From positions 19,685,001 to 19,749,000 of the forward strand of contig OX344763.1 of assembly GCA_947034895.1 (NCBI GenBank): a stretch of 64,000 bases of DNA. Direction: 5' to 3'. Positions within the stretch are counted from its first letter, which is position 1. Each line of letters begins with the position of its first letter. The notes beneath the pieces are model-generated. The model had not been told where the DNA came from. It was given only the letters and a program-made list of their open reading frames with translations, and searched no databases. This DNA is from Rhytidiadelphus loreus (taxonomy: Eukaryota > Streptophyta > Bryopsida > Hypnales > Hylocomiaceae). This document shows positions 12,201 to 42,437 of this stretch, in pieces. The position numbers and the translations under genes are program-made.

Positions 12201-13831
12201 ACTTGTCTTCCTTAATCACTTTAGACTTGAGTGGATGTTCAAGTTTGGAGACCTTGCCAAAAGATGTGGAGAACTTGTCTTCCTTGACCACTTTCAAGCT
12301 AAGTTGATGTTCAAGCTTGACAACTTTGCCAAAGGAAGTGGGGAACTTGTCTTCTTTAACCACTTTAGATTTGACTGAGTGTTCAAGTTTGGAGGCCTTG
12401 CCAAAAGAAGTGGGAAACTTGTTTTCTTTGACCACTCTCAATATGTGGGGGTGTACAAGCTTGGTAGCCTTGCCAAATGATGTGGGGAATTTATCTTCCT
12501 TAACCACTCTCAAGATTAGTGGGTGTTCAAGCTTGGCAACCTTACCAAAGAAATTAGGGAACTTGTCTTCCTTGACCACTCTTAAGTTGAGCAAGTGTTC
12601 AAGCTTGGTGACCTTGCCAAAGGATGTGGAGAACTTGTCTTCCTTGACCATTCTCAAGGTAAGTGGGTGTTTCAGCTTGGTGGCCTTACCAAAAGAAGTG
12701 GGAGACTTGTCTTCTTTGTCCACTTTAGATTTGGATGAGTGTTCAATTTTGGAAGCCTTGCCAAAGGATGTAGGGAACTTGCCTTCTTTAACTACTCTCA
12801 AGCTAAGCCAATGTTCAAGCTTGATATCCTTGCCAAAAGAAATGGGGAACATGGCTTCTTTAACCACTCTAGATTTATGGAGGTATTCAAGCTTGGTGAC
12901 CTTGCCAAAGGAAGTAGGGAACTTGTCTTCTTTGATCACTCTCAATTTGAGTGGGTGTTCAAGCTTGGTGGTCTTGCCAAATGAAGTGGGAAATTTATCC
13001 TCTTTAATCACTTTTAATATGTGGGCATGTACAAGCTTGACAGCCTTGTCAAAGGAAGTAGGGAACCTGTCTTGTTTGACCACTTTTAATTTGAGTAGAT
13101 GTTTAAGTTTCGCAACCTTGCCAAAGGAAGTAGGGAACTTATTGTCTCTAACTACTCTTGGATTAATTGATTGCTCAAGTTTGTTGGCCTTACTAATGGA
13201 AATAGGGAACTTGTCTTCTTTGACCACTTCTAGGGTAAGAGAATGCACAAGCTTGGCAACCTTGCCAAAAGACGTGAAATTACTCTCTTCTTTGACCACT
13301 TTAGATTTGAGTGGGTGTTCAAGCTTGGTAGCCTTGCCAAAGAAAGTGGGAATCTTATTTTCTTTGACCACTCTAAATTTGAGTGGATGTTTAAACTTGG
13401 TAGCCTTGCTAAAGGAAGAGGGAATCTTGTTTTCTTTGACCACTTTAGATTTGAAGGAGTGTTCAAGCTTGGTGGCTTTGCCAAAAGAAGTAGAAAATTT
13501 GTCTTCCTTAACCACTGTCAATTTGGAGAGATGTTCAAGCTTGGTGGCCTTGCCAAAAGACGTAGGGAACTTGTCTTCCTTGATCACTCTCAATTTGAGT
13601 GGGTGTTCAAACTTGGCAGCCTTGCCAAAGGAAGTGGGGAACTTGTCTACCTTGACCACTCTAAATTTGAGTGGGTGTTTAGGCTTGGAGACCTTACCAA
13701 AGGAAGTGGGGAACTTGTCTTCTATAACCACTCTTATGGTAAAAGATTGCTCAAGCTTGGCGACCTTGCCAAAAGAAGTGAAGAATTTGCCGTTTCTGAC
13801 AATTCTCAATTGTAAGGTCAAAAATCGATGA
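6222..13831 (+). CDS. kinase-NBS-LRR disease-resistance-type protein (PNL class), four exons, internal TGA
   Basis: Predicted intracellular immune receptor. Proposed exons are 6222-6325, 6655-8218, 8359-9402 and 9602-13831. All introns are GT-AG and the phases agree (2, 0, 0). The ATG at 6222 is preceded by in-frame TGA and TAG codons and gives a hydrophobic N-terminus. Residues ~36-230 are helical and unassigned. The kinase spans ~240-520, with Lys268, the catalytic loop HLDLKPDN (367-374, Leu for Arg of HRD), DYG (395-397) and ALE for APE, so the key Lys, Asp and Asn remain. The NBS has the P-loop GMGGIGKTT (591-599), LILDDIKD, GLPL (757-760) and MHD (873-875). About 53 LRRs of 24 residues follow. 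A TGA at 12305 would stop the protein at 1805 residues; the same frame stays open for 508 more codons. The architecture is known from moss NBS genes; a role in pathogen sensing is inferred. Confidence 0.85.
6326..6654 (+). other. intron 1 of the kinase-NBS-LRR gene
   Basis: Donor ATTCG/GTAAGC and acceptor TTCTTTGCAG/GAAAGA. The upstream exon ends two bases into a codon and the downstream exon supplies one base, so the frame is kept exactly. That match supports the small first exon. Confidence 0.65.
8219..8358 (+). other. intron 2, between kinase and NBS exons
   Basis: Donor CCACAG/GTATGA and acceptor TTTGTACAG/GTGGAT, 140 bp, phase 0. Reading is continuous from the kinase tail into the segment leading to the P-loop. 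It shows that kinase and NBS belong to one gene rather than two neighbours. Confidence 0.8.
9403..9601 (+). other. intron 3, between NBS and LRR exons
   Basis: Donor AACAAG/GTAATA and acceptor TTGAATGTAG/GATGTT, 199 bp, phase 0. The downstream exon is open from 9602 and begins with a leader of about 125 residues before the first regular LRR. Confidence 0.8.
9985..13825 (+). repeat. 72-bp coding tandem repeat array (LRR, ~53 units)
   Basis: A 72-bp unit encodes a 24-residue LRR of the form LPKEVGNLSSLTTLNLSGCS. Units are very similar at the DNA level (for example repeated GAACTTGTCTTCCTTGACCA), which points to recent expansion or gene conversion. Irregular units occur near 11080-11230, where one extra codon gives GMCSS and GTCSS, and near 11710, where a unit is shortened to an ICGG segment. 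All length changes are multiples of three, so selection kept the frame during expansion. Confidence 0.95.
12305..12307 (+). other. in-frame TGA inside the LRR array
   Basis: The context is AGT TGA TGT where other units read AGT GGA TGT (for example 12229-12237) or AGT CAA TGT. A single G-to-T change of GGA, or C-to-T of CGA, gives the stop. The frame on either side is the same and LRR coding resumes at the next codon, so this is a nonsense change rather than an exon end. Confidence 0.9.
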
Positions 13832-26150: not shown

Positions 26151-27110
26151 ATGGCTACTTCAACATCTATGAATTCTTCTTCCAAAACATATTTGGTTGA
26201 GAAGTTAAATACAACTAATTACAATTCTTGGAGTGTCAAGATGGAATTAATTTTAATCTTAAATGATTTTTTCTTAGTTGTGGACAAAAGTAAAACCAAC
26301 CCTAGAACTGCCACTCCCGAAGCTACAACATCTCAAATTCTTTGGAAACAAAAAGATTCCAAAGCACGTGCTACTATAATGCTACATTGTGGTGAAAAAC
26401 AATTTAGTACAGTTAAAACACTAAAAACTTCTAAAGTTGTTTGAGATAGATTAAAGGAAACATATCAACAAATTGACATTGCTACCCAGGTCACAGCCCA
26501 AAAGAAATTATCGCAATTAATAATGACAGAAGATACCCCTATTGCCGAATTCATTGAAGAATTCCAAAATATTATTGATGAAATAAGTGTTTCAGGACTA
26601 ACTATCCCTGAAGACTAACAATTTATTTATCAAGAGCTCTACCTCCTTCATAGAGACCATTTATATCCTTACAAGGTATGTACTATTACAAACAAAACAG
26701 TATCTAATTTAATTGCTCAAATTTTAGAAGAAGTTGCCATGAAAAATTATGAAGATTCTAAACAATCTCATATTACTACCACTAAACCTGGAGCATTTTT
26801 TTTGTAAGAAATGGTCAAAACAAACAAACAAATTAGAAAACAAAGAATTATTCAAATAATTCTCAAAATAATTCAAAATATAAAAGTGGAAATTTTTCCA
26901 AATTTACACGTAATCTACAAGTTAATAATAAATTTAATTATTCAAAACCAATAATTTGTTACAATTGTGGCAAACCCAGGCATATTTGACCTAATTGTCA
27001 AAAATTACCCCAAAATAAAATAAATCGCACCTACAAGCGTATATCTAATCAAGCCAACCTTACGTCAACTGAAAATCCTTCTATAAATTCTACAAAATCC
27101 AATATAATAC
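26151..27110 (+). pseudogene. Copia gag with zinc knuckle, broken
   Basis: Starts at the ATG at 26151. The segment KLNTTNYNSWSVKMELIL is typical of Copia gag N-termini. In-frame stops occur at 26442 (TGG-like to TGA), 26616 (CAA-like to TAA) and about 26803, and the frame then shifts. The CCHC knuckle CYNCGKPRHI..PNC is read at about 26957-27001 with a TGA where Arg is usual (CGA to TGA). Confidence 0.85.
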
Positions 27111-27118
27111 GAAGGTTT

Positions 27119-27509
27119 ATGGCCACCATCAAAGACCATTCACTTGACTCACATACATGGTACCTAGACTCCGGTGCCACCCAACATATGACCCCTATCA
27201 AAGAATATTTTATAAACTATACAATAATAAGTCCCCCTTTAAAAGTATATTCTTGTGTTGATCAAGTTCATGAAGCTATAGGTAAAGGGATAGTTCAAAT
27301 CCATCTTAATAATGGACAAACAACTACAGTATTTGATGTCTTGCACATTCCAACACTTGCCAAAAGTTTAACTTCCGTATGCAAAGCCACTATTCAATGC
27401 CAAAGTATTGAATTTTTTCACAATTATGCTATTATAAAGCATAAAAATAATAATGATGACTTAATTGAAATGCGTTTTAATCAAGTAGACAATTTATACT
27501 CCCTTGCTA
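27119..27509 (+). pseudogene. Copia protease and start of GAG-pre-integrase, cut by the hAT insertion
   Basis: The protease signature WYLDSGATQHMT has its active Asp in DSGA at about 27160-27190. The ORF continues through the linker until the hAT element begins at 27510. The 8-bp target duplication 27502-27509 is the last Copia sequence here, and coding resumes in the same frame at 42438. Confidence 0.9.
27502..27509. repeat. hAT target-site duplication, left copy
   Basis: CCTTGCTA, repeated exactly at 42430-42437. Eight bases is the diagnostic length for hAT transposons. Confidence 0.95.
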
Positions 27510-27519
27510 CAGGGTTGAC
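27510..27519 (+). repeat. hAT left terminal inverted repeat
   Basis: CAGGGTTGAC, matching the right end exactly over 10 bases. CAGGG-type ends are common in hAT. A palindromic GTCCGGACGTCC block follows at 27524-27535, and a related block lies in the right end at about 42353-42382. Confidence 0.95.
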
Positions 27520-28000
27520 AGGGCGTCCGGACGTCCAGAGTCCGCGGACGCTGACCCCAGGACGTCTTTTAACATACCTGGCGGTAGATGGCGTCCGACC
27601 GCTGGACGAGCGAACGACCGATTCTTCCGACGGAACAGGAGCGGACGGGCCGACGGTACAGAAGCGGACGCCCCGTCGGATCAGAAGCGGACGGCCCGAC
27701 AGAACAGAAGCGGACGGGCCGACGGTACAGGAGCGGACGGCCCGACGGAGGAGGAGCGGACAGGCCGACGGAGGAGGAGCGGACAGGCCGACAGGGCAGG
27801 AGTGGACAAGCCGACGGGGTAGGAGCGGACGGCCCGACGGAACAGGGGCGGACTGGCGACCGGATGTTCGTCCGCCCGTCGGGGGCCCGTCCGCTTTGGA
27901 CGGTGACCGTGCGATGTGACGGACGCCGATTTTCCACCGTTCGATCTTGCCGTCCGCATGTGTGCCGTCCGATGCTCCCGTACGTGGATTCATGCCGTCC
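27520..28000 (+). promoter_or_regulatory. motif array 1: left subterminal repeats and promoter of the first gene
   Basis: Nine exact-length 23-bp units (27641-27847) each begin with GCGGAC, most followed by GGCCCGACGG- or GGGCCGACGG-like sequence, with looser CGGACG or CGTCCG motifs on both sides. This array is both the subterminal region of the element and the upstream region of the gene at 28181. Subterminal repeats in hAT elements are known transposase binding sites; use as a promoter element is inferred. Confidence 0.85.
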
Positions 28001-28005
28001 GACTG

Positions 28006-28014
28006 CATAAATAG
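28006..28014 (+). promoter_or_regulatory. TATA box of the first hAT gene
   Basis: CATAAATAG lies 175 bp upstream of the ATG at 28181, right after the GCGGACGG array. Confidence 0.55.
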
Positions 28015-28180
28015 CGGAGAGCACGGCTTATTTTGCCACAATCGTTTCCCTTGCGGAGTGGGTGATCTAGTGCCTAAGGCTCTGTGCGCCTCTTCCGTTT
28101 TGGTGTGCAAATGATTGTGATCGAACCCTAAATTGTTTCAAGTGTAAGTGCGAATCATTAATCATTTAAGCAAGCTTACC

Positions 28181-29281
28181 ATGCCTCGCGATAAGAAATC
28201 GAAGTCTAGTAAGAAGGGCAAATCTCAAGACATAAATTGGGATGATTGGGACAACCAAATGTGTGTAGCTGAACCGGGTTGGGAAGAAGAATCCAAAAAA
28301 ACTTGGGACTGCACGACGTGCAAGAAGTACATCAAAATGACGCACCTCTCCAAAATATGGTCCAGAGAACGCGCAGAGGTGCAAGTTCGTCGTTGGGAAG
28401 GACAAATTTCCACATGCCAAAGCAAACACTTTGTTCATCGATACGAGGAAGTAACACGTTTAGCTCAAATACGGGACTCCAAACCGAATTTAATGAACTA
28501 TTCCAACATGAGCATGGTTTGGGCGGAGATTGTACTCCACAAAGATGTAGATTGGCGCACAATTTACGGAAAAGATGTTACCCACTTGAATCGCAGTGAT
28601 GCGGTACTTTATACCAGTTGGATTGGGCCGAGCGATTGCATGCCAGAGTGGTCTAATCGAGGCCAGTTTGGATTTCCACCGGTTGTATTGCCGGATGTAG
28701 AAGATGAATGGTCAGGTGATGATGATGAGAAAGACACTCCAACACCCGCGAGGATGGAAGAGAGGCACGAGCGTACAGAAGATCGGGAGGACATTCAATA
28801 CCAACAAGAAATGCGAGAGGCAATGCAAAGAAGCCTAGAGGACCGTGGTCGACAATATGGCCATCATGGGGTGTACAGACCCGATCGTGGTGCATATGGC
28901 TCGCAAGATACGCGAAGTATTTCACACTACAATAATGACCCTCAAGGGGGGTATCACAGCTCAAGGACAAGCCACGGAACCACGCATCATTTTGAAGGTA
29001 ACCAGGGAGGCTCCCAATACAACTTTACGTCTACTGGAGGTGGTTCTCATGAACCTCAAGGAGGCCCTTCTTATGGCGGTTCAACTCAAGGAGCATCTAC
29101 TCACAATGATTCAATTCCTCCTCCAACTTTTGGAGGTCCATACCAAGGACATTATGGACAAGCAAGTGGGCAAAACAGATATGGAGACGACTACTATGGC
29201 GGAGGACCATTTCTCAATGTTTATAGGTCTAGTGGTACAGGCCCAAGCCAAAAAGATGACACCGAATCAGAATCTGAGTGA
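28181..29281 (+). CDS. hAT cargo protein 1: Cys/His domain plus Gly/Tyr/Ser-rich tail (366 aa)
   Basis: Intact ORF starting at the first ATG, MPRDKKSKSSKKGKS, whose basic N-terminus could direct it to the nucleus. Residues ~40-127 contain C47-x7-H55-x23-C79-x3-H83-x2-H86 and then NYSNMSMVWAEI and DVDW. The same pattern with identical spacings occurs in the gene at 34263, so the two share a domain that I do not recognise; a zinc-binding, possibly DNA-binding fold is inferred. Residues ~185-230 are acidic and charged; ~235-366 are a low-complexity Gly/Ser/Tyr/His/Gln region typical of disordered, condensate-forming tails, ending TESESE. It lies directly inside the left end of the hAT element. 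A poly(A) signal AATAAAA is at 29446. Confidence 0.85.
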   Translation: MPRDKKSKSSKKGKSQDINWDDWDNQMCVAEPGWEEESKKTWDCTTCKKYIKMTHLSKIWSRERAEVQVRRWEGQISTCQSKHFVHRYEEVTRLAQIRDSKPNLMNYSNMSMVWAEIVLHKDVDWRTIYGKDVTHLNRSDAVLYTSWIGPSDCMPEWSNRGQFGFPPVVLPDVEDEWSGDDDEKDTPTPARMEERHERTEDREDIQYQQEMREAMQRSLEDRGRQYGHHGVYRPDRGAYGSQDTRSISHYNNDPQGGYHSSRTSHGTTHHFEGNQGGSQYNFTSTGGGSHEPQGGPSYGGSTQGASTHNDSIPPPTFGGPYQGHYGQASGQNRYGDDYYGGGPFLNVYRSSGTGPSQKDDTESESE

Positions 29282-30304
29282 AGTAGATTGGACTATTGGA
29301 CATTTGTAAGATTGTAGTTGTTGTCTCACAATACAATCAAGTGATTGTAAATTTGTAATCTCTTGCCACATAATATAGAAAGTGACAAGCACGGTACAAA
29401 GATGTTGGCTCTTAACAAATAGTATTTTCCTATTTGTAAATTATGAATAAAATATATTGTAATTAAGCCCTAAAGCCCTATGGATGTTTTTAGAAAAATG
29501 GATTTGTTTGGACCACTTCTACGGTATATACCGTAGAAAAACATCAACATCAATTTCTAGGGGGAATTTAAATAAAGTATTTTGTACATAACTTATTTGA
29601 GAGCATGGCGCCAAAATTTCAAAAATTTTGACTGCATGGATTGAAAGATATGGCATGATAAGCACTGCATTTGAAATTGAGAACGCCTTTAATCTCAGAC
29701 AAAATTTCAGTAAAGAATTTTTACAAATTAAAATCTGCAATTTCGGTTTAATTTACAAGACCACAACCCAATTATGCTTTGGAATTTTAATTTCATTTAG
29801 GGTTCTAGAATAATGAACGGAAAATTGATTCAAGGAGTTTGGCACTTAAGCTTCTCCTAAACAAAATCAACTTCGCAAAACAACATATTGTATAATTGTA
29901 TTATTTCAATACAAATGGTGTTGTTACTTTGTTGCCCCCCAATGAAAATTTGGGGGATTCTCTTGCATGTGCCATACACATTTACACGATAGATCATACA
30001 ATTTAGCACACCACCTTGCCAACCTAGGTGGCTAGGTACCCAACAATCCAACATCAATGATACATCAAGAAGAAGAACTCCAAGTCTACATTTCTCATCC
30101 ACCCAAAAAAGATGTTTTGTATTTAAATAGTTTGTGTTCCGAAAAATACAAAATGTTCAAAACGGAAAGCCAATTTCACATATATTGGCATACATTGATG
30201 GTGTATATATAGTCTATAGTTAGCACACATAGTAACGTACATCCTCACTGATACATTTATCGATTACTTCTATAATCTATAGTACTATGTAGCACACTCA
30301 TATA
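29282..30304. other. intergenic region between convergent hAT genes
   Basis: Holds the 3' ends of the gene at 28181 (+) and the kinase gene (-). It includes a poly(A) signal at 29446 and an 18-bp perfect palindrome at 29519-29536. No further gene seen. Confidence 0.6.
29519..29536. repeat. 18-bp perfect palindrome
   Basis: CTACGGTATATACCGTAG is its own reverse complement. It lies about 240 bp after the stop of the first hAT gene, away from the GC-rich arrays. Confidence 0.9.
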
Positions 30305-31789
30305 TTAATATGAGTGACGGAAGTGGTCATCTGGAATAGGCCAATTGTAAGAATTAGTAAATCGTTGGATGATTTCGGAAAAACTTCCGCGCTCCGCAAT
30401 CACTGAATTGCAAAGGCGATCCAAGTAGAGGTGAAATACCCTTGCCAAATCATGGTGGCTAAACCTCGTATGTCCTTCATTTTCACGATGAAGCGATGTG
30501 TTGGCCTCTGACATGCATAGTTTGTTGATCCGTTGAGCTATTCGACCAACGGCATATTCCTCCGATTTACGTGACAAAGTTGGAATCATTTCCACATCCG
30601 CATCTTTGCGGTGCACGTATGCAATTGAAGGGTCCACCCACCACCTTCGGTTCAAAGCTGCATCCCGATCTGCCGCGGATGTGAACGTATACAATGACTT
30701 CATTGGTTCAGTACGAACCGTAGACATGCCCCAATCGCAAACTCCAATGTAAACACGTGATTCATCCTCAGGAAAGTGAAACATGATATTGTCGGGAGAA
30801 ATATCATTGTGTAGATGACCCGCATTGTGGACCGCATTCATGATATGCACCAATGCCCATGCCAACTTGGTGCGCTTCTTTCTCCATCGACCAAGACGGA
30901 AAGCTTGAATCACCTCTTCGGGCGTTGGTCGTGAATAAGACAATCGAATGGCAATGTTATCTGGATAATCATTATCGAGAATCAACATTTGCCGCAATGT
31001 ACCACCATTCCACCAATATGCATACTCTTCATTGTTTGTTGCATGGACAGTGGCAAACCGAATAACTCCGTCATGTGGAATCCTCACTGCCATTGATTCG
31101 TTTTGGTGCTCCAACTTCGCAAGTTGAGGACGAATCCGTTGTTGATGAGATATCTTTGCAGCAAATTCCCAAAATGACGGAATCTCATGACATCCTTCAA
31201 TTCGAACCCTGCGAATTGTTGCGTATCCGCCCTTCAAGATTTTGTCATCTTGTAGAATCACCCTTGCTGTGTCTGGTAGTGCTATGAGATGTCGTCGTCC
31301 ACGTTGCAATTCTACATCTCCTTCATCCGAAGTCCACCAACCCAATGACCCTCGCCGATTGCGTCTCTTTGCAAACGGAGCGCAACGACGAACAAACAAG
31401 TCAGCTTTGAGAATGACTTGTTCAAAGCTTTCATCACTTGCACGGTGTTCCCTCCCGTATTTTTCTAGGATCACCTTCGCATTCCACAATGCGTCTTGCA
31501 CCCTGTTCTTTAGAAATTGTTGGAAGCCTTTCTTCTCCATTTCATGAATCCATTCTGGAACGTTTAGAGCATCCGTGAACTTCTGTGTCATATCCATCTT
31601 GAATTTGTCTACACATTCCTCTTGGTATCTCACATATTTAGTGTCAAGAGACACTGTAGTTTCCGCCTCATAAAACTTCACAATGTATTCAATCAAGAAT
31701 GCTTTGCAAGCATTGGAAGGAAGTTCACGTGCTAAGTCAATATCGGGCACCACATTCTTCCCCTTCGCTGCTCTTTTCGGTCTCGGCAT
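30305..31789 (-). CDS. hAT cargo protein 2: divergent protein kinase (494 aa)
   Basis: Intact ORF on the minus strand starting MPRPKRAAKGK, a basic N-terminus similar in style to that of the first hAT gene. Residues 1-170 are mostly helical and unassigned. The C-terminal half has kinase motifs: Gly-rich loop KGGYATIRRV (186-195), candidate ATP Lys212 in EFAAKIS, catalytic loop HNDISPDN (327-334, keeping Asp329 and Asn334) and DWG (352-354) for DFG. The catalytic residues are present, so activity is plausible, although HND for HRD and DWG for DFG mark it as far from standard plant kinases. Substrate unknown; phosphorylation of the transposase or of host chromatin factors is only a hypothesis. 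Its 5' end faces motif array 2. Confidence 0.8.
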   Translation of the reverse strand: MPRPKRAAKGKNVVPDIDLARELPSNACKAFLIEYIVKFYEAETTVSLDTKYVRYQEECVDKFKMDMTQKFTDALNVPEWIHEMEKKGFQQFLKNRVQDALWNAKVILEKYGREHRASDESFEQVILKADLFVRRCAPFAKRRNRRGSLGWWTSDEGDVELQRGRRHLIALPDTARVILQDDKILKGGYATIRRVRIEGCHEIPSFWEFAAKISHQQRIRPQLAKLEHQNESMAVRIPHDGVIRFATVHATNNEEYAYWWNGGTLRQMLILDNDYPDNIAIRLSYSRPTPEEVIQAFRLGRWRKKRTKLAWALVHIMNAVHNAGHLHNDISPDNIMFHFPEDESRVYIGVCDWGMSTVRTEPMKSLYTFTSAADRDAALNRRWWVDPSIAYVHRKDADVEMIPTLSRKSEEYAVGRIAQRINKLCMSEANTSLHRENEGHTRFSHHDLARVFHLYLDRLCNSVIAERGSFSEIIQRFTNSYNWPIPDDHFRHSY

Positions 31790-31989
31790 CGTAGAAAGTA
31801 TTAATTTTTAGTCCCAATTTAATTCATAAAAAATTACAGTGCACCAAGTACACATAAACTGGAAAAAACGGGCAAAATATAGGCCCCCAAAACCCACCTC
31901 CTACCTTCCCAACGAAAGGAGCTAATGGAGGATAAACCACCAAGCTCTCCGCTCTCTCTTGCAAAGCACAAGGGGGAAGGCAAAAGTGA

Positions 31990-32320
31990 GAGCGGACGGG
32001 CCATCTGCACCGCCTTATATGAGGCGGACGGCCTCGAGGTCCGCACGAGTGGACGGACCCCAAAGCGAACGGCCAACGGTTCGCCTCGCTTCGGCCGTCC
32101 GATGAAACGCACGGATCGGCAGTCCGCTTCATCGGACGGCCAGAACATACCGCCCAGCCGGACGCCGACTCCGCGACGCGGACGGCAGCGCCGAAATCGC
32201 GGACGGCGATCAGCAGCCGGACGGCGGCCTGCAGTACGCGGACGGCGACTCCAACACGCGGACGGCAGCGTGGGAACGGAGGACGGCGGGGTCTGCCTAA
32301 GCGGACGGGGGTGGGATTTT
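31990..32320. promoter_or_regulatory. motif array 2: upstream of the kinase gene
   Basis: About a dozen GCGGACGG or CCGTCCG motifs. The regular part (about 32175-32300) repeats GCGGACGGC plus about 12 bases, for example GCGGACGGCGACTCCAACAC, at 20-21 bp spacing. It lies 200-530 bp upstream of the kinase ATG. Confidence 0.85.
32014..32021 (-). promoter_or_regulatory. TATA box of the kinase gene
   Basis: On the minus strand it reads CATATAAGGCGG, about 228 bp upstream of the ATG and embedded within motif array 2. Confidence 0.55.
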
Positions 32321-32329
32321 GAAGTGCAT

Positions 32330-33700
32330 CCCGCCCAAATTCATCATTACGGCCTTAGGGGTCTTTGAATCCTTGATGTCACCAGCTGGCTGGCCCTCCG
32401 GTTCAATTTCATTTTTAATGTGGTTCCTTTGTGCCAATGGCGCTGGGATTTCATTTGATCTAAAAATTAAAAAATAAATAGAAAAAAGGATGTGTGAATT
32501 TAGGAATTATCTAAAAGATTCACATATTTTTTTATGTTGTTTTTACGTGCATGCATTGAGTTTATAATTTTCTCTTATTTTCTAGGGATGCAATTGAATT
32601 TCCTATGATATAAATTTTTGAATGAAATGAAGAATTGAACACATGGTAATTTAATTCTACTTATTTGAACTTCGAGAAAAAACTTAAAGCTTCTCATTGT
32701 CCAAATGAAGCTACGAGGTTTGTTTCTTGTATGTCAACACCTCATAAAATGGTCATTTCAAAACCAAAGACAAAAATTCTTTTAAATGGTATTTTACATG
32801 AAGGGGATATTAGTAGCTTGCAAAGGTTTTGATACTCTAGCATGAAAACGTGTGGAAGTAGATTTCTAGAAGTCTCCCCCCCCCCTCCCTTTGAGTTGAA
32901 TGAATTTATTGATTTCCAATGTATTGATTTCCATTCTTTAAAGAATCATAAGGTGCCAAAATATTAGCGCCAATTATATCAAGTTAAATTAATTCTAGTA
33001 TGAAATTATAACTTGCTCAATCACTAGGATGGGACAACATGCTATGAAAATAGTGCATACACTTGTCTTCTTATAACCTCACAAGTTCATGTGCACCCTA
33101 CTAGGCATTCAAGCAAATTTTTTAAAGTCTAAACATCTACATGGTTAGGAAATGCAAGGACAAATGTTTCTTTCGTTGTGGATACTAAAAGGCCATTTTT
33201 TTTTTCATACGTACAACACACTTTGAATGGCTTGGGCACTCAAACCTCTAAAAGATTTGATCCATTGGAAAATTAATCAACTTTGAATATTACATGAATT
33301 GGACCTTGGGAATTGTTTGCAATTCAATAACTCCTTTCCATTTTGTTATTAGTTCTATTTGGAATTTTGGGGGGCATATTTGTTTATCCAAAATCAAAGA
33401 CAAAGGATTGTGATTGTCACCCCCATTTGGACAACGAAAGGCCTAAACCCTATACCCTAAACCCTAACAAGGGTTTGGAGGCATTGCATTAGTCAAAATA
33501 CTACCTTTGAGTCCGTGGATTGCCTTGACATTTATGAAAACCAAGTCAATGCATCGAACATTGAAACATTCCTTCATCAATGAGCACCCGGTACTAGTAC
33601 AACGTCTCTACATTCCCAAATGAAAGAATCCTATGCTTCTGGAAATCAGGAGAGGACTAGAGGACTCAAGAGGGTGAAAACAAGGCCCAAACTCCCCAAG
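32330..33700. other. gene-free central segment of the hAT element
   Basis: AT-rich, with no ORF of note. It lies between the divergent kinase gene and the RING gene. It includes a C-run at about 32876-32886 and a short telomere-like stretch (CCTAAACCC copies) at 33442-33468. Confidence 0.6.
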
Positions 33701-33714
33701 TGTGCTTGGGCGGA

Positions 33715-34035
33715 CCTCGGGGAGGGAAGGGCGGATGGCAGCGTTGGAAATGCGGACGGACCCGTCGGAGTAGGCGGACGGACCCGTCAGAAATGCGGAC
33801 GGACCCGTCGGAGTAGGCGGACGGCGGCCTGCAGCACGCGGACGGCGACTCCGACGGGCGGACGGCCCGTCGGAAATGCGGACGGCGGCGGCGGGAAGGC
33901 GGACGGCAGCGTCGGATTTGGAGACGGATGGGCCGTCCGATTGAGCGGACGTTCGGGTCCGCTTCGCATTGGTCGGGGGAGGTTCGGTGGCGGACGATCT
34001 TAGGTTTGGTTTCGGACGGCTATAAGGGCGGACGG
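33715..34035 (+). promoter_or_regulatory. motif array 3: upstream of the RING gene
   Basis: About ten GCGGACGG-type motifs at 19-22 bp spacing, for example repeats of GCGGACGGACCCGTCGGAGT at 33750-33830. It ends right at the TATA box at 34021. Confidence 0.85.
34021..34027 (+). promoter_or_regulatory. TATA box of the RING gene
   Basis: TATAAGG within CGGCTATAAGGGCGGACGG, 242 bp upstream of the ATG at 34263. The arrangement resembles that at the kinase gene, where TATAAGG is also followed by a GCGGACGG-like motif. Confidence 0.6.
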
Positions 34036-34262
34036 CCTTCTTGTTTTTTCTCACTTCCCTCTCCTTCCTAGGACTCACAACTGTGTTGGATGTGCTACTG
34101 TTGCTTCATTGTGCCAGTTGCTCCTACATGGTGGAGAGGTGGGGTCATTCATCTATCATTATTGGTTCACATACAAACATTCATTGAAACTTGGGTGGAT
34201 TGAAGACACATACTTTTGGTGACTATTTAAATTCAATTGGGGACAAGTTCAAGTTGACAACC

Positions 34263-37200
34263 ATGAGTGGTCAAGGCGTTGAAGGTAGCGGTGGGTTGAC
34301 CGGCGGAGGTGACAATAGTAGGAGGCCTAAACCAAAGGGAACCGCCCATGAGCTCCACTATGAGATTTTAGATGATCCCAACATCAAAGCAGAGGGTGGT
34401 TGGGAAGCGGCGGAAGCGGAATATTGGTCCTCCAAAACGTGCAAGAAGTATGTGAAGATGTACCACATCGACAAGTTGTGGCCTAGGGAGGCCCACATCA
34501 TCCATACTCGTGGTTTTTGTTGCAAACCAGGGAATTGCAACAATGCGCACTTCATTCACCGAGCGCATGAAGTTTGGCGGGCCCTCTTCGGGGATAAAGC
34601 AATGTCCAAGGGGTATATAAACTACAGCTTGGCTTCTATGGTGTATGTAGAATTGATATTGGCACGCAAGGTGGATTGGAGCACGTTTCCAACGACAACG
34701 AACGCTCCACGTGTGCTTGAATGTAATCGGAAAGATATTCCTGATTTGTACAATCCACAAGCAAGGCCAAGTGAGGCATTTAAATCCAAAAGAGAGGTCA
34801 AACCAATGACAATGACTATGACCAAGGACGTGGAGGTCACAAGTTCGGCAATGCAATTGGCTTCAACACAAAACCGTACGGCAATACAAGATTTCAAAGG
34901 CGAGCATGTGGAGGGAGACATATTTTTAACTCCTCCAACGGATTTGATATGCACACCAAATGGAACAACAATGGTGGAGCACGTGGCCCCATCCGCACCA
35001 CATGAACGTCATGATGATGTCATTGAGGGAGAAGTTGCTAATGCGGGAATTGCCATTCAGAATCTTATAGACAGCAATGCTTTAAATCATTTGGCAAGTA
35101 CTTCAAAGCAAAGTTTGCCGAAGACACCGAGCCCGACATTGAATCTAGGAGTTGAGGTGCATCCTTCACCTCATCATGGAGAACAATCGGATGGCATGCT
35201 CCCAAATGAGACCATTCTTGGTGGATTTATCGATTCCAAGTATCCACATTTGTCATCATTGAGGACATCAAAATGGCAAATTGTTCGTCGGATGCCCTCG
35301 GTTGCATTATTAGAATCTTTGTGTAAAGGTTCACATTTGTGGCGGTCACACGAAGAACGTTTAAAGAACATGGAGCACACCAACGAGGATGGCACAAGTA
35401 ACGGAGGCGCGTAAACCCAAGATGAGCCTTCCGAGAGTCAATAGGCTGATTTTGTTTTGACCGCATCAAAATTGGCAGTTACGGCTCAATTTGTAGCAGA
35501 AGTCGCTCCAAGGCTGCAAGAAGTTGCAACGGATTTTTCCAAATTAGCGCCTGAATTGTTGAGTGGTGCCTTGGACTTCGTGAAGTTCAGCCAATCTATG
35601 ACACCATTTCTCGACGAGCATGTTACAGATTTGAAGGTTTTGAGTGAATACCAAGAGGAGATCAAGAAGTATAAGGATATAGATGTTGAGAATCTCAAGT
35701 TGGCGGCGGATGCTTCGAAATTGAAAGAGAAGCTAGAGACATTGGAGGCTCAATCAGATCGTCGCCATAATACATTGCTTTTCCAAAGGAAGTTTATTGA
35801 AGACTTGGAGTATGAAATTGTAGCGTTGAAGAAGAAAATCCGAGAAGGTGAGGTGGTTGTTGAGAAGGGAAAGGAGAAAGTGGAGGACAGACTAGATGGC
35901 ATTGAGGAAAACAACAATCTGGATTTGTTGTATTTGACCCCCATCGGTAATACTAATTCGACATTCCACGATGCTTCCATGCAAACGGAAAGCAATGAGG
36001 TCAAATAATTGAAGCAAAAATTGAACAAGGTCACCGAAGAAAACACGCATTTGGAGGCCGAGTTGAAACGATTGCAACGGATAGTGCAATTGGATGAATG
36101 TATGCCGAAGGGCACTTTGGACTCTCGATGGTTGGCATGGGTGCAAAAACTCGAAGACAAACCGTCTGTAATATCACGAGCAATGAAAGGGCTACTCAAA
36201 TTGGCAATGAAGTCGGATGAAGAATGCGATAGCGTGGAGTCCTCTCTTTGGCGTTTGAAGAAGATGTTTGCCTTTGTGCCAACGGGGTCTACCGAAATCA
36301 CATATTGGGGAGACATGGATGCAATGTTCGAGCGTTTGAACCACACAAAGAAGGAAGAGGTGGCCTCCATTAATTGGGCCTTGGAACTAGAAGAAGGTTG
36401 GGTCCCTTATCCCACACTTTCGGCACACATCAAGAAGAATGACAAGACAATGGTGCATGCTTGTGATCCTTCGGCCTTAATATTGGAGGGTCATTGTAGC
36501 CTTTGTCGAGTTCATTTTGGGCCCGAGGGAGCCCTCACCATGGGCCAATGTCCCCACACTTTCCACGTCACATGCATCGTGAGAGCATCCCTTATTCGTT
36601 CGGTGTGCCCCGAGTGTCGTTCTCCCTTGCCTCCTAGGTTCTACGAAATGCTCGGGATCTCGGAAGCTATGCCCCCCGGCCATGAATACAATCGATGGAC
36701 CCTTCCGTTAGACCAAGCGCCATTCAAATTTCAAAATTATGCGCATTGGGGAAAAAGTCTAACGTGGGATTCGGTAAATTCTACACATGGGCTATACGAA
36801 TCATCGGAGGTGCCGATAGATTCCTTGGTGTGGATGATCCACGATCGAGAGGTGGAGTTGCGAGCTAGAGGTATTGCCAATGAGGAGGATCGAGAAGTGT
36901 TTTGTCGTAGTATGGGGGGCCATTGGAGCATGCAACACCACAAATTCTTTCGATTTCCCGAAAAGGAAGTGAAGAAAGGACTAGATGGCAATTGGATAGA
37001 GGTGGAGCCTACACAAGAGTTTAATGAGCAATACGGGGATTACAATCACACTTTGCTAGGGAGGGCCCTGTTTTTATCAAAGTTGGAGGAAGCTGCACAA
37101 GTTCGTGCCTTTGTGGAACTAGATGGGCAATCAAGCACAGAAAATTCAATGGTGGAGGTGGCGGGGGCATTTGATAAGAGGATGGGCGAAATCATAATGC

Positions 37201-37550
37201 ATTGGAGGGCATTTTTAGTGGGGGGAGAAGAACCAAAGTGGTTTTCCATGAAAAATGATGATGACGTGGTCAACTTTTTGGTAGATAAAGTGGATGCTGC
37301 TTTGAGAGCGTTGAAGGCAGAAGACGTGGATTTGACTCCAAAACGGAAGAATAAACGGAAGATTGAAGATGAGGATGACTACTCTCCGGATACGAAACGA
37401 CACTTTTCCGCAGTAGACATGGAAGCTGCGTCCAGGGGGCCTATGAGTGAGGGCAGTCTTGGTCCTCAAACACGCCGTGCAAGTGCAAGGCTGAAGGATA
37501 AAGAGGGTTCGTCGCGTCTTTCTGAGGGAGGTAGCACGGATAATATATAG
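34263..37550 (+). pseudogene. hAT cargo protein 3: Cys/His domain, coiled coil and RING finger, with three in-frame stops
   Basis: One reading frame of 1095 codons, with stops at 35412 (TAA), 35442 (TAG) and 36006 (TAA) and no frame shift. I start it at the first ATG, MSGQGVEG. Codons ~57-140 carry C60-x7-H68-x23-C92-x3-H96-x2-H99 followed by NYSLASMVYVEL and KVDW, the domain shared with the gene at 28181. Codons ~400-620 are predicted coiled coil. Codons 745-791 form a RING-H2 finger: C-x2-C-x14-C-x-H-x2-H-x2-C-x10-C-x2-C. A C-terminal region of unknown type follows and ends with a basic KRKNKRK signal. RING fingers are mostly ubiquitin ligases, so the intact protein may have been one. All three stops can come from CAA or CAG by C-to-T. 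Confidence 0.8.
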
Positions 37551-37884
37551 GGTAGTTACACCTTGTTTGTATTTCGATATGACATTATGGAGTGTTGTTA
37601 ATTTTGAATCTCGAGAGGATTCAATACTATTAATTCACAACACTCATAGTATGCTATGAGTTGCTTTTCATTAATATAAAAATATGTGGGTTACTCAAAT
37701 GTTTTTGAATTTACTCTCCTAAGTTTTTGATATTTTATGCGATACTTTTTTGTCAAGTATGATTTTGGACATGCCTATCTCTCAACATAATTTTATCTCA
37801 TTAATTTCTGTATTCCTAAAATTACGTGCATCTCTAAACTAAGTCCCTAAAATTAAAACTTGTAGAATTAATGAATTACTCAAA

Positions 37885-38155
37885 ATCCACCAGCCGTCCG
37901 CTAGTCCGCCACCCGCCTACAATTTCAACACTGCCGTCCGCCTGTCGGAGCTCGCCGTCCACGATTCCGCCGCTGCCGTCCGCCTGTCGGAGCTCGCCGT
38001 CCGCGATTCCGTCGCTGCCGTCCGCCTGTCGGAGCTCGCCGTCCGCGATTCCGATGCTGCCGTCCGCCTGTCGCAGGTCGCCGTCCGCGCTTCCGACGCT
38101 ACCGTCCACCTATCGCAGGTCACCGTCCGCGCTTCCGTCGCTACCGTCCGCATTT
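37885..38155 (-). promoter_or_regulatory. motif array 4: upstream of the transposase gene
   Basis: Five 42-bp units, each of two ~21-bp halves (GCTGCCGTCCGCCTGTCGGA, then GCTCGCCGTCCGCGATTCCG). CCGTCCGC is the inverse of GCGGACGG, so the motif runs opposite to arrays 1 and 3. The array ends about 325 bp before the transposase ATG. Confidence 0.88.
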
Positions 38156-38237
38156 TTGTTCTCGGAACCGTTGGGGCTTTAGAAATGTTTTAGTTTTTGC
38201 TGCTCAACGGTCATGAGGAATGGGCCTGATCTGAAAT

Positions 38238-38244
38238 CTATAAG
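38238..38244 (+). promoter_or_regulatory. TATA box of the transposase gene
   Basis: CTATAAG, 241 bp upstream of the ATG at 38479. That is nearly the same distance as in the RING and kinase genes. Confidence 0.5.
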
Positions 38245-38478
38245 TTCTTAGAATTTCAGACTAATAAGCACTCTTGAGAAATTGAACGCTAAGATTTCCA
38301 AGGGCTAGGAGCTGCAATTTATTTTGTGTCCCTTGCTTGGTAATGCATAGTTCAGTGGACAGGGGGGCTTTGGTTTCCAAGGCTTCATTCACACATTGTT
38401 TCTAATATTTTTTACAAATCTTATCCAACGGTTACATTTTTAATTTGAATCCAATTTACGGAATTGGAGGTGATCACT

Positions 38479-41415
38479 ATGAGCAAGGATTGGTCTTCTT
38501 GGTATGGCTTCCCGGAGGTTGGTAAAGTGCAATGCCGGTTTTGCAACTTGGTGTTTGCCAAGAAAGTAAGCCGGTTGTTTAGCCACTTAGGATACCAAGG
38601 CACATCGGGGGCTCGTGACAAAGGAATTAGCCTTTGCGCAAAAATGACATCTCAAGTTCGAGCTTTATTTTTGGGTTGCCAAGGGGTGATCCCACGAAGA
38701 TCGTCTCTGAACAATGTGGATGGCAGTGGCACACCTATGGCTATGCGGGAATGCGATAATTCAAATGGAAGAAACATGGCACGGTCTACACATTCCGACT
38801 CATGCACTGCACCGGAGGATTTGGATCCATTGTCTTCTGAAGTGAACCTCAGTACACAAAGATCAAGTGAGCGTGGTACTCCACGGGGATCAAGCAGTAG
38901 GCCTCTGATTAGTCAGAAGCAAAGTAGTCTAGTGAATGGATTTGAAGAAGCAAATAAACGCAAGTTGAATGCGGTGTGGGCCAATTTCTTTTATGCTGCA
39001 AACATACCATTTGCTGTTGCGAGGAACCCAGCATTCAAAGAAGCGGTGAAGCGAACCGCCGAGTTTCAACGGCCTTATATCCCACCGTCTTATCACGACT
39101 TACGCCATAAATTGCTTGACCAAGCAAAGACAGACATTGAGGTCAATCTCCGAAAGCGGACCGAACACAGCATTAGGAAGTTTGGAGCAACATTGTCTAT
39201 TGATGGATGGACGTCGGTTACGAATCGGCCGTTGATAAATGCCATGCTCGTGTCTTCTGCAGGTGAGCAATTCTTGGGAGCGGTGGATACGACAGGGCAC
39301 GAAAAAAATGCAACATACTTGGCTGGCATACTTGAGAGCTTCATAGAACAAGTAGGCCCCAACAATGTGGTGCAGGTGAGTACAGATAATGCGTCAGTGA
39401 ACCCTGCAGCATGGAATTTGATATCTAGTAAATATCCCCACATTTTTTTTCAAGGTTGTGTGGTGCATGCCCTCAATTTGTTGCTGAAAGATTGGGGGAA
39501 TGAACAATGGATTGAAGAGGTCGTGGAAAATGCCCGTATCGTGGTGAAATTCTTCAAGAAGCAGCACATGCCACTTGCAATATTTCGGAAGTACTCACCG
39601 GAATATAATTTGTTGATGGCAGTGGAAACAAGGTTTGCCTCTAATTACAACATGATTGGGCGCATGTTGAAGGTCAATGGGAAGTTGCAACAAACAGTGA
39701 CGGACCCGCAATGGGATGAATACGCAAGGAAGTTTGGGCGGAACTCCAAATCCCGCAATGAATGTCGGATGGTGAAGAAGATAATTTTGAGCGAGCATTT
39801 TTGGCGCCGTTGTCAAAATTTCAAGGACTTGTCGGCTCCCGTTGTAAATGGTCTACGTGACTTGGATGCAAAGAGGCCATGCATGGGCAAGGTGTTGCAC
39901 ATAATGAGGAAATTAGAGAAACATGTCCTCTCTTTAGATAAACCGCCTTTTCGTTTATCCTCAGACCTTGCCATTCCACTAGTGCAACCGTATTATGCCC
40001 GACGGGAATTGGTGGAGACCGATCTACATTATGCAGGAGCTTTGTTGAACCCCTACCTTCTTGAAGATAAAGAGCTAGCCGACGATCAAGATGCAATGGA
40101 TGCATGCAAGCGTGTTCTAATGAAAATTTGCAAACAAGGGGAGTACGCCTCGGTCGTGAAAGAATTTGTAGCCTTCCGCCACAGGGAACCTCCATTTCAC
40201 AACATGTTGAACCCGGACGAGCAACAATTGTCGGCGCACGCTTGGTGGGATTTTGAAGGTGCGTGTGGGAAGCTCATTGCTCCAATTGCTAAGAGGATTT
40301 TGGCCCAACCGGTATCTTTGTCTTCATGTGAACGAAATTGGAGTAGCTATTCATTTGTTCACAACAAATTTCGAAACAAGTTGAAGCCACAGAGAGCCCA
40401 AGATTTGGTGTATGTGTACACCAATTCCAAAGTCCTTTCTGCATCAAAGGAAAACGATGAGAAGAAGTGGTACACCGAGAATGTGGAGTCGGAAGATTCT
40501 ATGTCGGAGGACGAGCGTGATGAAGATGGTGAAGATGGTGATCCTCTATTCGATGACGAAGATGCTATGAATGATGACATCACCAATTTGGATGATGAAC
40601 CGCTCCGGAGCCCAAATCGGAACAATGAAGAAGGGGATAGAAATGCGGAAGACATTTACAACTTTCCATTGGATGAGGACAATTGTGAATACGATGAAGG
40701 TGGCCCTTCTATAGCTAAATTTGTAGATGGAACCGGGTTGTTGACTAGCGAAAAGATTCTAGCCAATACGGAGGACACTCATGCGCAAATAGTGGAGGAA
40801 AATGAGGCAATGTTTGTCAATGATTGCATCCCCCAAACAGATGAAGTGATTCCAATTCTCGAGAGTCTACCCATGGCAATGGCACTTGTAGAAGAAAATC
40901 CCGAAGTCAATGACATGGGAGAGTGTGGGGTGAAGTCTGACATGAATGTGGATAATACAAGTGTTGAATGTGTGGAATTACCATCGAATGTAGATGCACG
41001 TGTGACGGAGTTTGATCGCCCAATGCTAGTTCACAACGTCAAAGACCAGAAGCAAATTGTGCAAGATCTCCAATTACGACCACGTAGCGATCGTCCATCA
41101 ACACTACATACAAGAGGTAGTACAACTTTGAATGGTCCCGGAGGCTCAAGATTTGGGAAACAAGTTGAACAACATTTGACCAGTCCGACCGGAATGCACC
41201 TTCGTGTCAATCCAGATCCATTCAATTCATCATGGAGCGATGATGAGAAGGACGAGACATTGGCATCAATGTTTGGTCAACGTTTTGGCCAAACAAAACG
41301 TGATTCATTCAAATCGTCTGATGGAACATTGCAGCAGATGATTGGAGCAAAGATACCCAATCAAGGAGGATCGCAAGTAAGACCACCAACGGTGAAAGAG
41401 TCCCACAAAGCTTGA
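38479..41415 (+). CDS. hAT transposase with BED zinc finger and acidic tail (978 aa as read)
   Basis: Nuclear cut-and-paste transposase. N-terminal BED-type finger C19-x2-C22..H36..C53 (CRFCNLVFAKKVSRLFSHL) for DNA binding. The catalytic core has Asp242 in SIDGWTS, Asp303 in STDNASVN, the hAT-specific C327-x2-H330 in GCVVHALNLL, and Glu618 in SSCERNWSSYSFVHNKFR within the dimerisation domain. Residues ~690-978 are an acidic, disordered extension not usual for hAT. The ATG at 38479 is the first in frame. The ORF ends in TGA at 41413, but the same frame continues openly to 41766, so the original protein was probably about 1095 residues. The catalytic core seems complete; without the lost tail it might still function. 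Confidence 0.92.
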   Translation: MSKDWSSWYGFPEVGKVQCRFCNLVFAKKVSRLFSHLGYQGTSGARDKGISLCAKMTSQVRALFLGCQGVIPRRSSLNNVDGSGTPMAMRECDNSNGRNMARSTHSDSCTAPEDLDPLSSEVNLSTQRSSERGTPRGSSSRPLISQKQSSLVNGFEEANKRKLNAVWANFFYAANIPFAVARNPAFKEAVKRTAEFQRPYIPPSYHDLRHKLLDQAKTDIEVNLRKRTEHSIRKFGATLSIDGWTSVTNRPLINAMLVSSAGEQFLGAVDTTGHEKNATYLAGILESFIEQVGPNNVVQVSTDNASVNPAAWNLISSKYPHIFFQGCVVHALNLLLKDWGNEQWIEEVVENARIVVKFFKKQHMPLAIFRKYSPEYNLLMAVETRFASNYNMIGRMLKVNGKLQQTVTDPQWDEYARKFGRNSKSRNECRMVKKIILSEHFWRRCQNFKDLSAPVVNGLRDLDAKRPCMGKVLHIMRKLEKHVLSLDKPPFRLSSDLAIPLVQPYYARRELVETDLHYAGALLNPYLLEDKELADDQDAMDACKRVLMKICKQGEYASVVKEFVAFRHREPPFHNMLNPDEQQLSAHAWWDFEGACGKLIAPIAKRILAQPVSLSSCERNWSSYSFVHNKFRNKLKPQRAQDLVYVYTNSKVLSASKENDEKKWYTENVESEDSMSEDERDEDGEDGDPLFDDEDAMNDDITNLDDEPLRSPNRNNEEGDRNAEDIYNFPLDEDNCEYDEGGPSIAKFVDGTGLLTSEKILANTEDTHAQIVEENEAMFVNDCIPQTDEVIPILESLPMAMALVEENPEVNDMGECGVKSDMNVDNTSVECVELPSNVDARVTEFDRPMLVHNVKDQKQIVQDLQLRPRSDRPSTLHTRGSTTLNGPGGSRFGKQVEQHLTSPTGMHLRVNPDPFNSSWSDDEKDETLASMFGQRFGQTKRDSFKSSDGTLQQMIGAKIPNQGGSQVRPPTVKESHKA

Positions 41416-41766
41416 AATAAAAGATTAATGGAGGCTTTTGCAATTTCCCCATCAAAGAGACAAAGTCTTGGTAAAACCCCTCTTGATGTATGTCAACCAA
41501 TTTCAGCGAGGAAATTAAAACCGATTCATGGCCTTAAAGAAGGTATAGGAAAGTCTATACTAAGAGCCAAACAAGAGCAGAGGAAGGGCCGACCAACGAG
41601 GTCAGTTGCATCCAAGCAAGTACAAGGAGGGGCAATTGTACAATCTTTATCAGAGGATATGGAAAAGTCAGACAACGATGAAGATGAAGATTCAGGATGG
41701 GATACTAGAGGTCATAGTAGCGGGGCAGAGGTGAAAGGAGATAGTGATTATCAGCCTTCGGGATGA
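41416..41766 (+). pseudogene. in-frame C-terminal continuation of the transposase beyond a TGA
   Basis: The frame of the transposase stays open after the TGA at 41413 for 116 codons, with basic (IHGLKEGIGKSILRAKQEQR) and acidic (KSDNDEDEDSGWD) stretches like the preceding tail. CGA to TGA by C-to-T would explain the stop. It could instead be a separate small ORF from the ATG at 41428, which I think less likely. Confidence 0.6.
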
Positions 41767-42019
41767 AAGGGATGTATAATTCATTATTCAAGTGTTCATA
41801 ATGAATTGTTACATGGAAGCATGTAACGGCAATTTATTTTTTGAACCTATCATTGTAATGCACCTGAACTTAATGATGTTCAAAATATCATCAAGGTTTT
41901 TTTGTTTCTAAATAGTCAAGCACTATTGACTGAAATTACATTGTGTGCATCATTTTCTGGATCAAGTATTACCTACAAAAATGTAATAGTATAATGCATC
42001 AAATTTGGCTTCATGTACT
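41767..42019. other. 3' flank of the transposase gene
   Basis: AT-rich non-coding sequence between the transposase frame and the right subterminal array. No gene seen. Confidence 0.6.
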
Positions 42020-42027
42020 GTAGTTTT

Positions 42028-42410
42028 ATGGATGTCCGCCCGTCCGCGCCGTCCGCCATCCGCGCCTTTCGTCCGCCGACCGCGCGGATGCGTCCGCCGT
42101 CCGCGCCTTCCGTCCGCTGTCCGCGCGGACGTGTCCACCGACCGCGCCTTCCATCCGCCGACCGCGCGGATGCGTCCGCCATCCACGCCTTCCATCTGCC
42201 GTCCGCGCCTTCCGTCCGGTGTCCGCGCGGACATGTCCGCCGTCCGCCCGTCCGCCGACCGCGCCGACCGCGCCGACCGCCCATCTGCGTCGGCCAAACG
42301 ACCGACGGGTGCCGTCCGATGGACGCCGTCCACATCGTCCGCGCGTCCCGAAAATGTGGACGTCCGGACGTCCGGACGTCCGAAAAATGGACGTGATTTT
42401 GCCCCGGACG
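42028..42410 (-). promoter_or_regulatory. motif array 5: right subterminal repeats of the hAT element
   Basis: Repeats of about 41 bp made of ~20-bp and 21-bp halves (CGCGCCTTCCGTCCGCTGTC, then CGCGCGGACGTGTCCACCGA), rich in CGTCCGC, the inverse of the left-end motif. Further CGTCCGGACG palindromes lie at about 42353-42382. No gene starts here, so this copy of the array serves only the element end. Confidence 0.88.
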
Positions 42411-42419
42411 TTGAAATTC

Positions 42420-42429
42420 GTCAACCCTG
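42420..42429 (-). repeat. hAT right terminal inverted repeat
   Basis: GTCAACCCTG, the exact inverse of the left end, followed by the duplication CCTTGCTA at 42430-42437. Confidence 0.95.
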
Positions 42430-42437
42430 CCTTGCTA

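Follow-up and report, generated by a model that had tools for sequence, protein, structure and literature searches.

A large multi-gene hAT transposon family in the moss Rhytidiadelphus loreus and a possible role for its accessory genes

The 64,000-nucleotide stretch of the Rhytidiadelphus loreus genome analyzed here (GenBank assembly GCA_947034895.1, contig OX344763.1, positions 19,685,001 to 19,749,000 of the forward strand; hereafter the window) contains a Copia retrotransposon interrupted by a 14.9-kb hAT transposon that carries three genes besides its transposase. The autonomous hATs known to us encode a transposase alone, measure ~3-6 kb and are taken as one-gene transposons. The locus raises the question of whether the three additional genes are scraps of the host genome or a set that works for the element. 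We found that the window element belongs to a multi-gene hAT family, family A, that has amplified recently, and that its extra genes look like the element's own toolkit and not like stolen host genes, because genes of the same kinds are found again in further copies and in a distant second family, family B.

As claimed in the preliminary description, the element is delimited to the base by exact 10-bp terminal inverted repeats (TIRs) and an exact 8-bp target-site duplication (TSD). Counted over the whole window, 5170 exact 10-bp inverted pairs lie 0.5-25 kb apart, and two of them are flanked by an exact 8-bp duplication, namely, the CAGGGTTGAC pair and one poly-A pair. Removal of the element together with one TSD makes the Copia frame continuous across the site, again as described earlier, although the host Copia retrotransposon (window 26990-27509, then 42438 onward) is broken farther downstream by stops or frame changes. 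The transposase, likewise recognized as hAT in the preliminary description, matches DUF659 (1.6e-36; 125.7 bits, Pfam cut-off 34.7) and Dimer_Tnp_hAT (2.5e-9; 37.2 bits, cut-off 21.4), and the TIR starts with CAGGG. The 8-bp TSD, the hAT transposase domains and the short TIRs with subterminal repeats place the element among the hATs. A VANDAL (MULE) assignment does not fit, as the transposase is that of a hAT and the TSD measures 8 bp, whereas the MULE transposase (VANA) goes with a ~9-bp TSD. The borders and genes of the window copy are as follows.

27502..27509, unstranded: left TSD CCTTGCTA, 8-bp exact target-site duplication
27510..27519, + strand: left TIR CAGGGTTGAC
28181..29281, + strand: gene 1 (G1), 366 amino acids, N-terminal TCKxY domain and Gly/Tyr/Ser-rich low-complexity tail
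30305..31789, - strand: divergent protein kinase, 494 amino acids
34263..37550, + strand: gene 3 (G3), TCKxY domain, coiled coil and RING
38479..41415, + strand: hAT transposase (DUF659, Dimer_Tnp_hAT), 978 amino acids in the window copy
41416..41766, + strand: 116 further codons that extend the transposase reading frame, continuous with it in the other copies read
42420..42429, - strand: right TIR, CAGGGTTGAC inverted
42430..42437, unstranded: right TSD CCTTGCTA, 8 bp exact

The 407-Mb assembly (489 contigs, five of which measure 50.7-94.4 Mb) was searched for further copies. The counts for G3, the kinase, the transposase and the two ends refer to the best matches scored, and the larger totals to first-look candidates, which are not confirmed copies. 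The best 40 of 226 candidates for the left end (191-bp query) were all 87-100% identical to it, and the best 40 of 369 for the right end were 92-100% identical. Among the genes, identities reached 92-100% for the best 84 of 1121 candidates for the C-terminal part of G3, 95-100% for the best 87 of 1156 for the kinase (stop-free in 47 of the 87) and 96-100% for the best 47 of 1544 for the transposase. The transposase frame spans at least 1094 codons in 36 of the 47 matches listed when internal stops are read through, and 16 of the 47 combine this length with a stop-free frame.

We then considered an end-to-end sample consisting of the window copy and 13 further copies (n = 14) picked for both ends among the matches listed. 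All four genes are present in 13 of the 14, at amino-acid identities of ~92-98% along most of each gene (one piece at 87%); the remaining copy, of 6.4 kb (C3, 75.60 Mb), holds only G1 and the transposase, having lost two genes. Uninterrupted family A copies measure ~14.6-15.2 kb. An exact 8-bp TSD flanks 12 of the 14 copies (ten found by script, two by eye) and is absent from the short copy C3_75.60 and from the 40-kb copy C2_56.88. Two of these 12 are a pair on C5 (46.02 and 46.07 Mb): C5:46021631-46036308 and C5:46070403-46110747 form a segmental duplication with the same TSD and flanks, 97% identical over the element. Beyond this sample, 29 of the 47 transposase matches listed have both G3 and the kinase upstream in the expected orientation, seven have only G3, eight only the kinase and three neither; a transposase match thus lies near G3 and/or the kinase in 44 of 47 cases, against a chance per match of ~0.1% for G3 and ~0.5% for the kinase. 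A listed kinase lies within 45 kb in the expected orientation for 53 of the 84 G3 matches, most commonly at a spacing of ~5.7 kb. The preliminary description had proposed to check whether the four genes always travel together; they mostly do, as a full set in the end-to-end sample and as transposase, G3 and kinase among the matches listed. No sign of introns was seen in the copies read.

Three family A copies reach ~40 kb; two of them contain a nested element of family B, and one (on C2) contains other insertions. On C4, the family B element measures 26,076 bp, with TIR CAGGGTTGTCT and the exact TSD ATCATTAC; on C5, it measures 25,932 bp, has a TSD matching at 7 of 8 bases and is inserted at the start of G1. 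Because only the 46.07-Mb member of the duplicated C5 pair holds the nested element, the 46.02-Mb member is a natural empty site for family B. Family B encodes a transposase of 1095 amino acids (Dimer_Tnp_hAT 31.5 bits and DUF659 123.4 bits, both above the Pfam cut-offs), whose frame is intact in the C5 copy and interrupted in the C4 copy, and a kinase of 546 amino acids, for which the reverse holds. It further encodes a TCKxY plus RING protein, interpreted as a single gene that contains stops in either copy, and another two TCKxY plus coiled-coil proteins, of 497 and 525 amino acids, both open in the C5 copy. Compared by phmmer, the gene kinds of the two families match at 1.1e-139 for the transposases, 1.4e-56 for the kinases, 1e-26 for G3 and the RING protein, and 2.2e-14 for G1 and the 525-amino-acid TCKxY protein, with identities of 26-37%.

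The insertions in other copies are of different kinds. In C2:56882227-56922980, a 22-kb CACTA/En-Spm-like insertion lies in G3 (oriented ~11100-33167), with ends CACTAGTAGAAAATT and the 3-bp TSD TTT; it contains several open reading frames (ORFs), one encoding an NLI-interacting-factor-like (FCP1/CTD-type) phosphatase (Pfam NIF 1.8e-12). It is noteworthy that one genome holds both a CACTA element encoding a phosphatase and a hAT encoding a kinase. The same C2 copy contains a 4.0-kb insertion (oriented 2481-6435; TGTCG ends, 5-bp TSD GGTGG, ORFs of >300 amino acids), and C3_22.00 (C3:21999227-22017439) contains one of 3.4 kb (oriented 7387-10819; TGTCG ends, 5-bp TSD ACATA, ORFs of >300 amino acids). 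Elsewhere in the window, positions 6644-13828 (+ strand) hold one or more NLR-like genes, in which a P-loop/NB-ARC-like frame (8266-9414) precedes frames that encode a regular, very long array of leucine-rich repeats (GNLSSLTTLNLSGCSSL...), both recognized by eye.

The kinase gene, described earlier as divergent, scores only 1.8e-5 against Pfam Pkinase, below the Pfam cut-off, yet its catalytic residues are fully kept. In an alignment of 32 sequences (the window kinase and 31 of its 62 relatives), K212, E231, D329, N334 and D352 are invariant, the signature motifs read HND/SPDN and DWG, and the catalytic residues of a eukaryotic protein kinase are all present; we take the five positions to be the catalytic Lys, the alpha-C Glu, the catalytic Asp and Asn, and the Mg-binding Asp. 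No match at 1e-5 was obtained with the kinase profile in the PDB. The 62 relatives, found among 5.8 billion proteins, share 28-76% identity. Ceratodon purpureus, with two kinase proteins from the loci M758_3G001500 and KC19_VG055000, is the only plant named among the relatives of the kinase, G3 and G1. One of these proteins (P0034, KC19_VG055000) stands in a cluster of 126 member sequences; it is itself annotated as hypothetical or protein kinase domain-containing, and its gene probably belongs to a transposon but has been recorded as a conventional gene. One relative recorded as a Bacilli metagenome-assembled genome was taken as contamination. A tree of 40 kinases separates the A and B types by a well-supported split, and each side also includes relatives from other data; the family B row is a long branch whose exact place is unsure.

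G1 and G3 share an N-terminal domain for which we coined the name TCKxY, and the two N-termini are paralogous (33% identity over 157 amino acids, E 4e-24). The same search of 5.8 billion proteins yielded 34 relatives of G1 (38-73% identity) and, among the 8000 best candidates, seven uninterrupted relatives of G3 (960-1140 amino acids, 35-52% identity). One G3 relative (P0064) and one G1 relative (P0074) are each known from a 17649-bp contig of the same source, so that both almost surely lie on one contig. The RING of G3 matches zf-RING_2 at 4.7e-5, below the Pfam cut-off, and all seven G3 relatives show a RING match at E 0.1 or better. The G1 profile found no useful relative in the PDB. A search of IMG/VR returned no relatives; the single weak match in GTDB genomes, of 63 residues in an Erythrobacter record, was judged spurious. 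The preliminary description had characterized both proteins as Cys/His proteins. The Gly/Tyr-rich tail, the coiled coil and the RING were all found, whereas the Cys/His character of the TCKxY domain is unstable. C47, C79 and H83 are invariant among G1 relatives (25 sequences), as are C87, C92 and H96 among G3 relatives (eight sequences); two family B proteins lack most of the invariant Cys and His, and zf-C3HC is weak (only 0.014 for the window protein, and 0.1 or better in 9 of 25 G1 members, at best 0.0054). We rejected the term zinc finger for the domain on these grounds. The genes had also been described as large ORFs. G3 is a single 1095-codon frame (34263-37547), but is not one large ORF in the window copy because of three in-frame stops at 35412, 35442 and 36006.

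At its N-terminus, the transposase carries a BED-like CxxC motif, for which Pfam zf-BED scores only 0.14. The IDGW/SDGW, TDNAS and SSCERNW blocks are conserved between the A and B transposases and contain candidates for the D, D and E of the catalytic triad. Sequence searches with the transposase gave no match to Hermes and no useful relative in the PDB. In the window copy, the frame meets an in-frame stop at 41413 and resumes to 41766, and the equivalent position is a sense codon in each of the 13 further copies read. Among the transposase matches listed, C4:42194770 shows a frame of 988 codons, as in the window copy, and possibly the same stop; this equal frame length speaks against the stop being private to the window copy, a reading we dropped despite its absence from the 13 copies read. 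The idea that each of the four in-frame stops in the window copy arose by C-to-T decay was likewise set aside, since relatives do not support it at one of them.

The non-coding parts of the element are marked by a short motif. Counting both strands, we found 93 occurrences of CGGAC within the 14.9-kb element against 14 across the remaining 49 kb of the window; the motif is absent from the coding sequences of G1, the kinase and G3 and occurs four times in that of the transposase. The occurrences form five blocks.

27510..28180, + strand: left terminal CGGAC/GTCCG block, 20 matches, holding a 23-bp tandem array (27627-27857); also the G1 5' region
31990..32320, unstranded: CGGACGG block before the kinase start
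33680..34045, unstranded: CGGACGG block before G3
37890..38160, unstranded: CGGACGG block before the transposase, with a 42-bp tandem array
42030..42429, - strand: right terminal GTCCG/CGGAC block, whose prevailing orientation mirrors that of the left block

All 13 long copies have the five blocks, one of them with its left block interrupted by family B, and block lengths vary among copies (782-1118 bp for the region before the transposase, 498-743 bp for the right end). The longer motif CGGACGG occurs 49 times in family A and twice in each of two family B copies. Family B has GGGCGAC instead, with 70 and 84 occurrences in two copies, none in family A and an average of ~1.3 in mononucleotide shuffles. 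Its blocks lie at both ends, before the 497-amino-acid, kinase, 525-amino-acid and transposase genes, and in further intergenic places, and the G3-like gene follows the left-end block. In a script count over the coding ranges assigned to family B, GGGCGAC is absent from four genes and occurs three times in the 525-amino-acid range, ahead of its domain. The short motif is private to each family and is repeated in tandem blocks that sit at both ends and ahead of the genes. Family-specific motifs in tandem non-coding blocks that vary among copies are the arrangement of VANDAL-like elements.

Nonsynonymous and synonymous changes between copies, a comparison proposed in the preliminary description, gave a weakly positive answer, for the kinase and G3. 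Raw pN/pS ratios among family A copies are 0.68 for G1, 0.46 for the kinase, 0.50 for G3 and 0.58 for the transposase, with C>T or G>A making up 71-79% of changes. Under a null matched to mutation spectrum and base context (12-13 copies, with one of the duplicated C5 pair left out), this signal is mostly gone, and purifying selection among family A copies was rejected as proof of usefulness. Relative to the null, nonsynonymous-to-synonymous ratios are 1.10, 0.83, 1.00 and 1.12 for singletons in G1, the kinase, G3 and the transposase, respectively. For changes shared by at least two copies, they are 1.03 for G1, 0.46 for the kinase (P 0.05), 0.64 for G3 (P 0.04) and 0.94 for the transposase. 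A weak signal therefore stands for the kinase and G3 in shared changes, while G1 and the transposase are near neutral. Singleton stops in G1 number 2 against 6.9 expected (P 0.02), and the other stop counts are near expectation or not clearly below it. As change within the family is near neutral, long-term constraint rests on family B and on relatives elsewhere.

Taken together, the presence of the full set in nearly all end-to-end copies, its recurrence in family B and the long-protein relatives in other data support the earlier suggestion that the extra genes serve the element: we consider it very probable that they form an element-serving set, presumably with a dedicated function, and are not random host scraps. 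The best overall explanation, to which we would give an even chance, is a multi-gene hAT lineage in which the extra genes serve to regulate or protect their element. Under this explanation, an element-encoded DNA-binding protein would read the blocks; the TCKxY proteins are the likeliest candidates, alone or jointly with the BED-like transposase, and the genes and both ends of one copy would thereby be addressed together. The kinase and the RING protein (E3-like) would be effectors, either recruited to the blocks or acting on host silencing or transcription proteins, the element's promoters would stay active despite host DNA methylation, and ordinary hAT cut-and-paste transposition would then take place. 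Such a system would work in a VANDAL/VANC-like manner, in another transposon superfamily and with other proteins. The anti-silencing step falls somewhat short of an even chance. More tentative again is the fullest form of the proposal, namely, that mosses harbor an old lineage of giant multi-gene hATs whose TCKxY proteins may read a private motif array at the ends and promoters and recruit an element-encoded kinase and RING ubiquitin ligase against silencing.

Several observations weigh against regulation or protection of the element by its extra genes. The gene-content counts rest on best-scoring matches and on copies picked for paired ends, and family B is known from two copies only, both nested in family A. 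Family A copies decay almost neutrally after insertion. The Cys/His pattern varies among TCKxY proteins, and DNA binding by this domain is therefore a guess. In addition, subterminal repeats are the normal transposase-binding sites of hAT elements, so that the motifs may need no TCKxY protein.

This last point leads to the chief rival explanation, in which the transposase alone reads the blocks, at the ends for transposition and at the promoters for self-regulation, while the kinase and RING protein aid transposition (e.g., through modification of the transposase or by coupling it to the phases of the cell cycle) and play no part in silencing. We regard it as rather unlikely, although the mirrored motif orientation at the two ends is that of subterminal repeats, the transposase is the gene most conserved between A and B, and its N-terminus has the BED-like CxxC despite the low zf-BED score. 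It accounts less well for blocks that also precede other genes, both in the 13 long copies and in family B, and the presence of at least two TCKxY paralogues per element in both families suggests that the TCKxY domain is tied to the motif system. It is improbable, in our view, that the extra genes act broadly on the host (in defense, DNA repair or development) without motif-specific action: the signature residues kept in kinase and RING relatives would suit such a role, but the motif arrays are private to each family and therefore point to a system that acts locally and addresses itself. Capture of host genes in a single event, passively amplified with one chimeric copy in the manner of a Pack-hAT, is very improbable: the same gene kinds are found in both distant families and in other data (26-37% identity between families; 28-76%, 35-52% and 38-73% for the kinase, G3 and G1 relatives), in addition to which the copies read show no sign of introns and G1 and G3 are mutual paralogues, even though family A is a young burst in mostly neutral decay, whose common gene content is therefore alone no proof of usefulness.

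Regulation or protection of the element by its own genes, the explanation we favor, can be set beside known systems. With hATs of the Ac, Hermes and Tol2 type, the element shares the 8-bp TSD, the short CAGGG TIR, DUF659 and Dimer_Tnp_hAT, the BED-like N-terminus and the subterminal repeats; it differs in its size (15 kb, and 26 kb for family B), in its three or four extra genes and in the motif blocks before genes. CACTA/En-Spm (TnpA/TnpD) and MuDR (MudrA/MudrB) also combine a transposase with an accessory gene and have subterminal binding motifs that overlap promoters, but their transposase and TSD differ from those found here. The closest likeness in anatomy is to the VANDAL MULEs (VANA/VANB/VANC), which have several accessory genes and family-specific tandem non-coding motif blocks whose length varies among copies. 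According to excerpts of the published accounts, family-private tandem motifs in non-coding regions that vary among copies accompany VANC proteins in Arabidopsis VANDAL21 and VANDAL6, and silencing is undone by VANC proteins that recognize arrays of this kind (PMC5735166, PMC10398659). The element resembles VANDAL by its anatomy, yet it is a hAT and not a VANDAL: its transposase is of the hAT type, kinase, RING and TCKxY proteins replace VANB and VANC, and its genes show no sign of introns. The fungal ToxhAT is, in an excerpt of its description, a hAT of similar size (14 kb) with a virulence gene as cargo; the excerpt mentions no gene set that recurs across distant families (PMC12506042). A word search of open-licence literature, covering titles and the starts of abstracts, found no multi-gene plant hAT and no hAT-encoded kinase.

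In one moss genome, two distant hAT families keep a similar gene set together with a family-specific motif array. This makes the escape of plant transposons from silencing testable in mosses, a lineage with good genetics. If the anti-silencing proposal is true, VANC-type sequence-specific anti-silencing would have been invented a second time, independently, here through phosphorylation and ubiquitination. Transposon-encoded kinases and RING proteins could also point to new host silencing factors.

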